64,000 bases of DNA from positions 62,001 through 126,000 of the forward strand of contig NZ_FQUC01000003.1 of NCBI RefSeq assembly GCF_900128985.1. The letters are read 5' to 3'. Made by a program: the position numbers and the translations under genes. Each line of letters begins with the position of its first letter. Position 1 is the stretch's first letter. The stretch is from Indolivaga macrotermitis (GTDB lineage Bacteria > Bacteroidota > Bacteroidia > Bacteroidales > Dysgonomonadaceae). Shown here in pieces: positions 49,808 to 52,639 of the stretch. The notes beneath the pieces are model-generated. The model searched no databases. It worked only from the letters and a program-made list of their open reading frames with translations, and had not been told where the DNA came from.

Positions 49808-50335
49808 TTATTGATCTACAAATTTGCCACCCATTTGCTCATCAAAAGCTGCACCCTCTTCTGCGCTCATATGCTTGCGTATCACTTGCATAGTGTATCC
49901 GCCATATATGTCGCCGCTATTGGTGTCGGTATACATCCAATCACTGAGCTTTTTCTGGTCTATGTTTACCGAATCCCCGTACTTGATCGTCATTTTGCCT
50001 ACAGGTTCATTTACTAATATACCGCTGAATCTTTTACCATCGTATGTGATATCCGATACCCACATATGCTCTACGCTTCCGTCCTTGGTTGGGAAACCTA
50101 TTTTTACGATAAAATCTTCGTACTTGTTTGTTTTCTTATTATCAATGAATGCTTTTTCGAATTTATCAAAAGTAGATTGAGCTTTAGAAATTGCATCATT
50201 CATTTCTTTGTCGTTTCTATCGACATTGGTTACACCAGTTTCGGTATTTGTCTGATAACTTTTTTTCTCGCTATTGCAATTCGTGAATAGTCCAACAAGA
50301 GCAAAGAAGCTCAAGTAAAGAATTGTTTTTTTCAT
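49808..50335 (-). CDS. DUF2314 lipoprotein
   Basis: 175 residues with a lipoprotein signal (LVGLFTNCNSEKK, Cys near 20). The mature domain matches DUF2314: AISKAQSTFDKFEKAF, VKIGFPTKDGSVEHMWVSDI and MTIKYGDSVNIDQKKLSDW, a small alpha/beta domain. DUF2314 proteins occur widely with unknown function and sometimes near toxin genes. It has its own promoter in the motif-rich gap upstream. Confidence 0.85.
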   Translation of the reverse strand: MKKTILYLSFFALVGLFTNCNSEKKSYQTNTETGVTNVDRNDKEMNDAISKAQSTFDKFEKAFIDNKKTNKYEDFIVKIGFPTKDGSVEHMWVSDITYDGKRFSGILVNEPVGKMTIKYGDSVNIDQKKLSDWMYTDTNSGDIYGGYTMQVIRKHMSAEEGAAFDEQMGGKFVDQ

Positions 50336-50349
50336 GTTTGTTCAAATCT

Positions 50350-50759
50350 TGTTGAAAACGTGTTTATAACTCACGTTTTAGTGTTGAAAATCCCTGATTA
50401 ATAAGTGAATTGTTTGTTAACAAAGATAAGGCGAATTTTTTAAACAAGAGGCATCATTCGTTTGTTTTAAGATTATTCCGCTGGGAAGATTTGTCTTCTC
50501 TCAGAGTAATTCCGTGTCATGTAGTGGCTGTTATGTAATGTTCCCCAAAGATTTGGGGTATGTTTATTGTGTGTTGACAAGTTGTTGATAACTTGTTAAT
50601 AGAGTCTTTTTTATTGTTGAAAAAACTCAGAAAACGGTTTATTCTCAGTTAAATTCCTGTTGAGAGGAAGAGTGTAGAGATTGATTACCAGTGTTTCCGG
50701 TGTCAATAACTTAATTAATGGAGGCAGAAACCCGGTAAATGTCTACCGGTTGTTGAAAA
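50350..50759 (+). other. Cluster of TGTTGA 9-mers, candidate DnaA-box cluster or replication origin
   Basis: Seven same-strand copies of TGTTGA-N3 lie in a 500-bp gene-free gap: TGTTGAAAA at 50350, 50382, 50615 and 50751; TGTTGACAA at 50572; TGTTGATAA at 50583; TGTTGAGAG at 50658. TGTTGATAA differs by one base from the DnaA box TGTGGATAA. The gap also holds the inverted repeats CCCCAAA/TTTGGGG (50543-50558) and ACAAGTT/AACTTGT (50577-50596). This pattern resembles origins, but I cannot check strand skew. No gene is visible here. Confidence 0.4.
50421..50447 (-). promoter_or_regulatory. Promoter of the DUF2314 gene
   Basis: Minus-strand TATCTTTG (50421-50428) with a TTG (50445-50447) 16 bases upstream. 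The -7 match is perfect, and the leader to the ATG at 50335 is about 80 bases. Confidence 0.5.
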
Positions 50760-50786
50760 CAGAAAGAGCCTGCCTACCGGCAGACC
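50760..50786 (-). terminator. Probable sppA terminator
   Basis: On the minus strand GTCTGCC-GGTA-GGCAGGC (positions 50785-50768, one wobble) followed by TCTTTCTGTTTTC. It lies about 50 bp after the sppA stop. Confidence 0.5.
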
Positions 50787-50833
50787 CTTCCCAAAATAAG
50801 TAAATTGAGTATTGAGATGTAGTAAAATAAAAA

Positions 50834-52639
50834 TTAATAGCTTACCTGTTCTGTTATCATAGCAGAACGGATATCGAATGTTTGTAAATAGTTTCGGGTA
50901 ACATTCTGATTATAACCGGTCTCACCCATGAAGAATTTGATTGCTTTGATTTTTGAATTATTCATAGACTCTTCAAAGATTTGAGAGAACATATCTTTCT
51001 TTACAGGATATTTTGCAGTACTGTATTCTGTTACTTTTGCCTGTTCTACAGCTAGGGCAATAGCAGTATCAAGACCTCCCAGCTTATCTACTAATCCGAT
51101 TTTCAGAGCTTGTGCACCTGTCCATACACGTCCCTGACCTATTGAATCAATGTCGGCTTTGGTTTTATTACGACCATCGGCACAGCGACTAATAAACAGG
51201 TCGTATCCGTTTTCGATATATTTTTGGAGTATGCGTGATTCCTCATCATTAAAACCTCTGGAAGAAGCCGTTAATAAAAATGGAATAGAGTAGGGTGCAC
51301 CTCCGAACGAACTGTGTTTATTGGTATTTACTTCATCGAACGACAATCCTATCTTCTTCGCAAGTTCTTCTCCGTCGGGAATGATACCGAAGATTCCGAT
51401 AGATCCGGTGAGTGTAGTTGGTTCCGCTACAATGGTATTGGCTGCGCATGATATGTAATAACCTCCTGATGCTGCATAATCGCCCATCGACACGATAACC
51501 GGTTTCTTAGCTTTTAGCTCTTTTACGGCATTCCATATTTGCTCCGAAGCATAGGCGCTACCTCCGGGCGAGTTTACTCGGAATACAACAGCTTTTACCT
51601 TATCGTCGTTTTTGAGTTTGTTCAGTTCTTTTACATATTCTTTTGCAGTTATAGTGCTTCCTCCTGAGAACAGATTATTGGCCGCATCATCAACAATAGT
51701 ACCTTCTGCATAAAGAATTGCAATTTCGTTATCTTTGTTTTCTTTTGTTTTTGATTTTACATTAACCATATTTTCTACGGTTGCCATGTTCAAATCCTTG
51801 CTTTCTTCTATATTAACCAGTTGTTTCAGATAGCTCTCTACAGCAGGTGTATATAGTAATGTATCTACCATCTGGTAATTGATAAGAGAATCCGCTTCGG
51901 TGAACATCAGGAACTTATCTGCATATTCATTCAGCTTCGCTACGGGTATGTTGCGGCTGTCGGAAATTCCTTTTAATAAATGTGCCCATATGTCATTCAG
52001 ATACGAAGTGCGTTGCAAACGGTTGGCATCGCTCATTTTTTCCTGGATAAGGGGTTCTACGGCAGATTTGAATGTTCCTACTTTGAATACCTGCATTTTA
52101 ATGCCTAGCTTGTCGGTCATATTCTTGGTAAATGTCAGGTTGGAACTTAGTCCATGAAAATCGAGGCTACCTTTAGGATTAAGTATAATTTTATCGGCAA
52201 CTGAAGCTAAGTAATAAGTGTCTTGCGCATAAAAATCACCATAGGCAACAATAAATTTGCCTGTTTCCTTGAAATCGATCAGGGCATTACGGATAGGTTC
52301 CAGATTTGCAAGCCCTCCATTAAACTGTCCGGCTTTCAGGTAAATGCCTTTTACTTCGTCATTTTCTTTGGCTTTTTGTATAGCATCCAGAATATCATCC
52401 AGCCCTATACTTGAAGGGTTACCCAGAATTTTATCAAGAGGGTTCGAGGCTGATCTTTCGTTGAGAATACCCTCCAGATCGATCGATAATACTGTTTGGT
52501 CTTTCAGTGAGTAGGTCGATGAGCTACCCATGCCTGCTATTATTCCTGCGAAAATCATAATAGCGAAAAGAGATAATATCGCTGATCCGATAATGACTCC
52601 TAATGTAGAGGCTAATAAGGTTTTAAAGAAATTCTTCAT
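50834..52639 (-). CDS. sppA: Signal peptide peptidase SppA, 67K type
   Basis: 601 residues with an N-terminal membrane helix (LLASTLGVIIGSAILSLFAI near residues 8-27) and two homologous ClpP-like peptidase domains, as in the long-form SppA tetramer. The second domain shows NSPGGSAYASEQIWNAV with the catalytic Ser and the VSMGDYAASGGYYISCAANT segment; the general-base Lys is expected in the first domain (ASVADKIILNPKG). SppA degrades leftover signal peptides in the membrane. The next gene upstream, an XRE regulator, ends 24 bases before sppA, so read-through is possible. Confidence 0.93.
   Translation of the reverse strand: MKNFFKTLLASTLGVIIGSAILSLFAIMIFAGIIAGMGSSSTYSLKDQTVLSIDLEGILNERSASNPLDKILGNPSSIGLDDILDAIQKAKENDEVKGIYLKAGQFNGGLANLEPIRNALIDFKETGKFIVAYGDFYAQDTYYLASVADKIILNPKGSLDFHGLSSNLTFTKNMTDKLGIKMQVFKVGTFKSAVEPLIQEKMSDANRLQRTSYLNDIWAHLLKGISDSRNIPVAKLNEYADKFLMFTEADSLINYQMVDTLLYTPAVESYLKQLVNIEESKDLNMATVENMVNVKSKTKENKDNEIAILYAEGTIVDDAANNLFSGGSTITAKEYVKELNKLKNDDKVKAVVFRVNSPGGSAYASEQIWNAVKELKAKKPVIVSMGDYAASGGYYISCAANTIVAEPTTLTGSIGIFGIIPDGEELAKKIGLSFDEVNTNKHSSFGGAPYSIPFLLTASSRGFNDEESRILQKYIENGYDLFISRCADGRNKTKADIDSIGQGRVWTGAQALKIGLVDKLGGLDTAIALAVEQAKVTEYSTAKYPVKKDMFSQIFEESMNNSKIKAIKFFMGETGYNQNVTRNYLQTFDIRSAMITEQVSY

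Follow-up and report, generated by a model that had tools for sequence, protein, structure and literature searches.

A conserved one-way array of candidate DnaA boxes lies far from the predicted replication origin in Dysgonomonas

Introduction

Why should a short gap between two genes carry the same hexamer seven times, always on one strand? The gap in question lies in a 64,000-nucleotide stretch (hereafter the window; contig C21, positions 62001-126000) of the genome G000, a 4.66 Mb draft in 49 contigs. An earlier note, made from the sequence of the window alone, had suggested that it could be a replication origin or an array of boxes for the initiator DnaA. These two proposals have different consequences for the position, composition and conservation of the gap, and we examine them here together with alternatives in which DnaA regulates a neighbouring gene, in which another protein binds, or in which the words are a neutral remnant.

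Results

A gene-free gap carries a one-way, helically phased array

The gap (50336..50833, assigned to no strand) is 498 bp long with 65% AT and separates the 3' end of a sppA paralogue (Peptidase_S49, 50834..52639, minus strand) from the start of a lipoprotein-like DUF2314 gene (49808..50335, minus strand; Pfam was run on the window copy of this gene only). No open reading frame of at least 80 aa was found in it, in agreement with the earlier description as gene-free, and the reading frames on both sides lie on the minus strand. TGTTGA starts at 50350, 50382, 50572, 50583, 50615, 50658 and 50751, seven times on the plus strand and never on the minus strand, within the 9-mers TGTTGAAAA (four copies), TGTTGACAA, TGTTGATAA and TGTTGAGAG. 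That these words form a true cluster was borne out: none of 3000 dinucleotide shuffles of the gap reached seven copies, and in 1000 shuffles no 6-mer with at least three different letters did so. The better strand of the shuffles held 0.69 copies on average, so the earlier expectation of about 0.1 per strand was too low. When both strands were compared, the gap was the densest 420-bp stretch of the window for TGTTGA (7 on the plus strand; maximum of 2 on the minus strand). The word itself is not rare in the window (46 found, 37 expected), and it is not enriched in noncoding DNA generally (ratio 1.04 in C21 of G000 and 0.90 in the genome G001). The E. coli-type word TTATNNACA was not enriched in the window either (16 found, 19.8 expected).

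Four words absent from the earlier note extend the array, and two of them are further TGTTRA words (50415 and 50594) that bring the window copy to nine TGTTRANAR boxes. Read along the plus strand, it begins with TGTTGAAAA (50350..50358) and, 11 bp past it, the weak box TGTTTATAA (50361..50369; TGTTTATAACT also occurs in the oriC of G000), followed by a second TGTTGAAAA (50382..50390) and by TGTTAACAA (50415..50423), a near-palindrome readable on both strands. A triple with 2-bp spacing is then opened by TGTTGACAA (50572..50580) and continued by TGTTGATAA (50583..50591), which has the same letters as the main oriC box, and TGTTAATAG (50594..50602), a word present once in each of five oriCs. TGTTGAAAA recurs 21 bp further (50615..50623), the weak boxes TGTTGAGAG (50658..50666) and TGTCAATAA (50701..50709) follow at successive steps of 43 bp, and a last TGTTGAAAA (50751..50759) adjoins the 3' end of sppA. 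The small hairpins reported earlier are present, CCCCAAAGATTTGGGG at 50543-50558 and AAAACGTG/CACGTTTT at 50355-50379. A consensus scan of the minus strand, the strand of the lipoprotein and sppA genes, detected neither the lipoprotein promoter nor the sppA terminator that had been placed here; a hairpin 3' of sppA was recognized by eye in relatives. No RNA element in the window matched Rfam at the gathering threshold.

The boxes share one orientation and are mostly separated by multiples of about 10.6 bp. Phasing was tested in four genomes on spacings of at most 60 bp (21 of 25), and same-strand spacings were 11, 21, 22, 32, 33 or 43 bp in 19 of these 21, the others being 15 and 12 (G004). 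A period of 10.6 bp fitted best (R 0.89, n=21). Against uniform spacings, and with optimisation of the period taken into the test, p was 5e-5, and it stayed at this value when G001, which shares spacings with G005 by descent, was removed. Taken genome by genome, p was 6.5e-4 for G000, 3e-4 for G005, 0.014 for G001 and 0.13 for G004.

The array is kept at one place in the genus

We compared the gap among five good Dysgonomonas genomes; a sixth, G003 (62% complete), was included only where six genomes are counted. The array is kept at the same place in four of the five (G000, G001, G004 and G005), as the earlier note had asked to see in relatives. A pattern describing the triple matched 12 times in the six whole genomes, with no match for its reversed control, and 11 of these matches fell in the sppA gap (G000 three, G001 two, G005 four, G004 two). 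The twelfth lies in G004, 14 kb from its sppA gap, in front of a 251-aa ORF adjoining a cytochrome c assembly gene that is 96% identical to the copy found at a distance of 2.1 kb from the window array, which makes it likely that a rearrangement divided the former region in G004. The sppA paralogue adjoins the array in all four array-bearing genomes. A lipoprotein-like ORF does so in three (G000, G001 and G005) and is absent beside the G004 array, which has seven TGTTRANAR boxes and lies between two 3' ends, those of sppA and of a 312-aa ORF. The array thus follows sppA and not the lipoprotein gene.

In a tree of SppA proteins (32 of 33 rows used, the lpxK-linked sppA of G000 being left out), the window sppA belonged to its own clade (support 100/99), and the array occurs in both branches of the genus. 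Outside the genus the sole holder of this sppA type in the tree was the sister-genus genome G017, in which no TGTTGA was found within 800 bp downstream of the gene.

In G002 the array is nearly all lost, with one TGTTGA left near sppA, and the stretch from the cytochrome c assembly gene to sppA contains a repeat at the site of the missing array. This repeat holds GATGCAAAACGAAACAAAAGATCAAGAC and recurs in Dysgonomonas DNA (L006 3813-3840, L127 23-50, L128 512-539, L045, L051, L074, L077); within 3 mismatches it has no match in the window. Its core is also found close to oriC in G004 and four times in those parts of G001 that were read.

The predicted oriC lies elsewhere

GC skew was computed from samples or partial contigs, the genomes used being drafts except G001. 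On C21 the third-codon-position skew was 0.05 to 0.18 in each 12-kb window between 40 and 140 kb, so that it is positive on both flanks of the gap, at 112 kb, without any switch there. At 10-40 kb and at 140-160 kb it was close to zero or a little below, returning to positive values from there to 206 kb; total skew tracks gene strand, with negative values in some windows right of the gap. Within the 77 kb of contig C26 that were examined, the skew minimum of G000 fell at 200141 (third position) or 200165 (all bases), and directly past it we found a noncoding region of 79% AT (about 201158-201507) that we predict to be oriC. In the examined stretch of the complete G001 chromosome (4298355 bp) the minimum lies at 1.641 Mb by third position and at 1.651 Mb when all bases are counted, next to a box cluster at 1652489-1652889, the predicted oriC of that genome. 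The oriCs are thus at skew minima in both genomes tested. Skew in G001 changes sign again between samples at 3.66 and 3.87 Mb, and three of 20 samples ran against their arm (1-20 kb, 645 kb and 2.58 Mb). The G001 sppA gap, at 2.9887 Mb, is inside an arm, 1.34 Mb or 31% of the chromosome away from oriC. Skew rules out an origin as well as a terminus at the gap, and the first of the two earlier proposals has to be given up.

The oriC counterparts in four other Dysgonomonas genomes have 77-80% AT. That of G000 carries inverted TGTTGATAA and TGTTAATAG boxes and a run resembling a DnaA-trio, TAGTAATAATAG, which is present in all five oriCs. ATATGGTAGTAATAATAGG occurs once in each of three of the six genomes, at oriC, and is absent from the other three; by eye, its last base differs in G001 and G005. 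The predicted oriC lies near genes of 312 and 349 aa, which we take to encode a methyltransferase-like and a phosphatase-like protein. The sppA gap of G000, with 65% AT against 77-80% in the five oriCs, has neither an AT-rich unwinding element nor a trio-like run beside its boxes. A run of four TAN triplets occurs once each in the G001 and G005 gaps (83 and 62 bp from the nearest box start) and nowhere in the G000 and G004 gaps, and TAGTAATAATAGG has no match in the window within 1 mismatch.

An altered DnaA box and its initiator

The commonest 9-mer of the five oriCs is TTATCAACA (that is, TGTTGATAA), with 21 copies, present in all five and 177-fold above background. In a second genus of the family, four exact TTATCAACA copies lie within 190 bp (G029, 267910-268091). 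They are located at the lowest skew in the 200 kb examined (minima at 266030 and 268382) and adjoin an lpxK-linked sppA. The same word is listed among the boxes of a Cyanothece oriC bound in vitro by DnaA domain IV (passage in PMC4674748). The Dysgonomonas DnaA box is very likely to be mainly TTATCAACA and not the E. coli box TTATCCACA. By alignment, domain IV of the G000 DnaA keeps R399, H434 and H439 (E. coli numbering), and three of six base-contact residues, as listed in a section of PMC7561715, are altered (P423A, D433N and T435A, with the numbering placed by us). We take these changes as fitting an altered box. Bacteroidetes oriCs are described as commonly far from dnaA (PMC4755523), and dnaA of G000, on C22, is likewise apart from oriC on C26. 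Autoregulation of dnaA was considered and rejected: six dnaA loci, that of G003 with only 73 bp upstream, held a single TGTTRATAR box, on the 3' side of dnaA in G005.

A search of G000 with the PF00308 profile returned one protein, DnaA itself. As structures of Hda turn up as sequence relatives of this DnaA, G000 probably lacks an Hda of the known type. Five ORFs of 253-256 aa in G001 (1139448, 1953385, 2373505, 2564079 and 4276748) gave weak DnaA-family matches, four of them with identical scores; we presume that they are perhaps IS21-type IstB helpers.

The array matches the oriC box motif

A 10-position motif was built from the seed TGTTGATAA and trained on 29 oriC sites only, to which both oriCs and no gap contributed. 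Over 878374 bases of G000 and G001, with both strands scanned, the top four clusters were the two oriCs (97.6 and 82.1) and the two sppA gaps (77.3 and 66.5). The fifth (46.4) was the upstream region of a parA-like gene, and the same four clusters led at a looser threshold. The whole of G000 has three tight tandem pairs (boxes separated by 1-3 bp), of which two are in the gap and one is in oriC. Such pairs are present in the gaps of G000 and G004 and absent from those of G001 and G005. In the remaining genomes the search picked up oriC pairs, pairs within or close to the G004 gap, and four at other sites (G001 two, G002 one, G004 one); the control search matched once each in G001, G004 and G005. 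These counts come from looser patterns, an earlier pair pattern that was stricter at the last base having matched nothing. Judged both by the oriC-trained motif and by tight pairs, the species' own oriC box motif is clustered outside oriC.

The match is uneven at the level of single boxes. Two of the nine in the window copy, TGTTGATAA and TGTTAATAG, are exact oriC words, and the seven others (TGTTGAAAA four times, TGTTGACAA, TGTTGAGAG and TGTTAACAA) are absent from all five oriCs and would be weaker DnaA sites. TGTTAATAA is common in the gaps of relatives and is an oriC word in G004 only. The suggestion of a DnaA-box array thus gained good support from the identity of TGTTGATAA with the commonest oriC 9-mer, from the motif ranking and from its retention in four of five genomes, tempered by the small share of exact oriC words. 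We infer with high confidence that DnaA binds the array, and a DnaA oligomer would form on it.

Box arrays elsewhere in the genus and family

In G000 (C4:56511, L130) and G001 (1726649, L131) two boxes 20 bp apart, start to start, lie just upstream of genes that we take from their sequence to be parA-parB-like; similar box pairs are also present in G002, G004 and G005. In the family, the triple pattern was found in 29 of 101 genomes and its reversed control gave 7 matches in 4 of 101, so single family hits are not safe. Genus g6 has a box cluster 5' of sppA, and the triple pattern is present in 10 of 25 g6 genomes (L144-L146, L148-L152, L155, L156, L169). In G029 this cluster (C1:268047-268107, L145) coincides with the skew minimum, so oriC would have a different neighbourhood there. 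A link between this origin-side sppA and the window gap was considered and rejected: the g6 sppA groups with the lpxK-linked paralogue (99/96), in a clade separate from the window sppA, and its boxes are 5' of the gene, so the shared neighbour is taken as a coincidence. Two g6 genomes (L147, L154) have box triples upstream of a gene that from its sequence we presume to be rsmH-like. In six genomes of four other genera, one-way triples, spaced for the most part by 11 bp, are found on the 3' side of an FtsX/MacB-type permease gene (L157, L158, L160, L161, L163, L164; Pfam was run on two of the six, and a small gene intervenes in three); in the complete genome G025 this array (1982901) is not at a skew sign change at the coarse sampling used. 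Two g10 genomes (L165, L166) carry arrays of five and six boxes, mostly TGTTAAGAA, with many 11-bp steps.

Discussion

We consider it probable, with moderate confidence, that the gap is an off-origin DnaA-box array that would load DnaA and sequester or modulate it, in the manner of datA or other DnaA-box clusters. A conserved row of DnaA-like sites, for the most part on a single face of the helix and far from oriC, suggests a control site rather than a second start. E. coli DnaA is described as preferring box pairs 2-3 bp apart (section of PMC11317965) and Thermotoga DnaA as binding same-direction pairs best at 2 bp; in E. coli oriC, one-way arrays guide head-to-tail ATP-DnaA oligomers (both in passages of PMC10316083). 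Much of the capacity of the E. coli chromosome to titrate DnaA comes from off-origin clusters (PMC12371093), which also alter DnaA activity and are deletable (PMC4585315). From these properties together with the probable lack of Hda we infer a DnaA sink or a site of activity control. With boxes that point one way and are mostly about one to four whole helical turns apart, DnaA molecules could align head to tail along a single face of the helix. After the replication fork has copied the gap, the array could withdraw DnaA, probably ATP-DnaA, from circulation or alter its nucleotide state, and this removal or modulation would adjust when the distant oriC initiates next. Titration, hydrolysis and reactivation are not told apart by the sequence. 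Whether the array controls chromosome copying at all is, in our estimate, an even question.

The alternative that fares best, although we regard it as unlikely, is a regulatory region in which DnaA or another factor on the array controls the adjoining lipoprotein-SIR2 gene pair. The array is just upstream of the lipoprotein-like ORF in three genomes, E. coli DnaA is also described as a transcription regulator (PMC11317965), and a box pair precedes the parA-like gene in both genomes examined; however, no promoter is expected between the two 3' ends where the seven G004 boxes lie, and the array accompanies sppA. It is less probable still that a protein other than DnaA, with a TGTTRATAA-like site, binds the gap. 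DnaA binding at the gap is deduced from base sequence, the majority of boxes in the window copy differ from any oriC word, and comparable 11-bp arrays are found at other sites in the family, for instance 3' of the permease gene, but the presence of the commonest oriC 9-mer and the confinement of G000 tight pairs to gap and oriC argue for DnaA. There is only a slight chance that the array is a neutral relic, for example the degenerate remains of a former origin or a chance product of simple repeats: the many imperfect boxes of the G000 copy and the loss in G002 would fit, but the array is found in both genus branches, box columns of the G001-G005 alignment are identical at 52 of 63 positions against 126 of 184 for other columns, and G000 stays in helical phase with spacings unlike those found in G001 and G005. 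Finally, an origin at the gap retains next to no probability, since its DnaA-like boxes in noncoding DNA and the sppA gene beside the G029 skew minimum are outweighed by the skew, the position within the G001 arm, the composition, the near disappearance of the array in G002 and the different clade and 5' box position of the g6 sppA.

A broader and more tentative proposal is that Dysgonomonas, for which the Pfam DnaA profile detected no Hda-type protein in G000, might control initiation through a dedicated one-way, phased DnaA-loading platform far from oriC. If true, the platform would be a Bacteroidota control device distinct in architecture and in DnaA box, and other members of this class would be seen in the related 11-bp arrays of the family. 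Titles and abstracts of the open PMC literature yielded no report of off-origin DnaA sites or box arrays in Bacteroidota. The handles gained are a predicted Dysgonomonas oriC, an altered box together with changes at the corresponding domain IV residues of DnaA, and a conserved off-origin array. Confirmation would extend DnaA control by chromosomal sites, as in E. coli, Bacillus and Streptomyces, to another phylum, and to a genome where no Hda-type protein was found.

Among known systems, DARS1 and DARS2 are off-origin sites acting on the nucleotide state of DnaA (PMC4585315), and they resemble the gap in kind only; DARS promotes ADP release with the help of partner-protein sites. Clusters of B. 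subtilis and Streptomyces coelicolor are, like the gap array, extra boxes outside oriC, and are said to repress untimely initiation, but they are described as near oriC (PMC4585315), whereas the G001 array is 1.34 Mb from it. The left and right DnaA-oligomerizing regions of E. coli oriC share with the gap same-direction boxes that promote head-to-tail ATP-DnaA oligomers (passage of PMC10316083); unlike them, the gap has boxes in one direction only, and no unwinding element or trio was found in it. The DnaA-inactivating site datA of E. coli, which promotes ATP-DnaA hydrolysis, shares with the gap that it is a noncoding, dispensable off-origin DnaA-box cluster on one replichore. Its function depends on boxes 2 and 3 and on an IHF site lying between these two (PMC4585315), whereas the gap is a long one-way phased array with a TTATCAACA-type box. 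G002 seems to have dropped its array, much as the off-origin clusters of E. coli can be deleted (PMC4585315).
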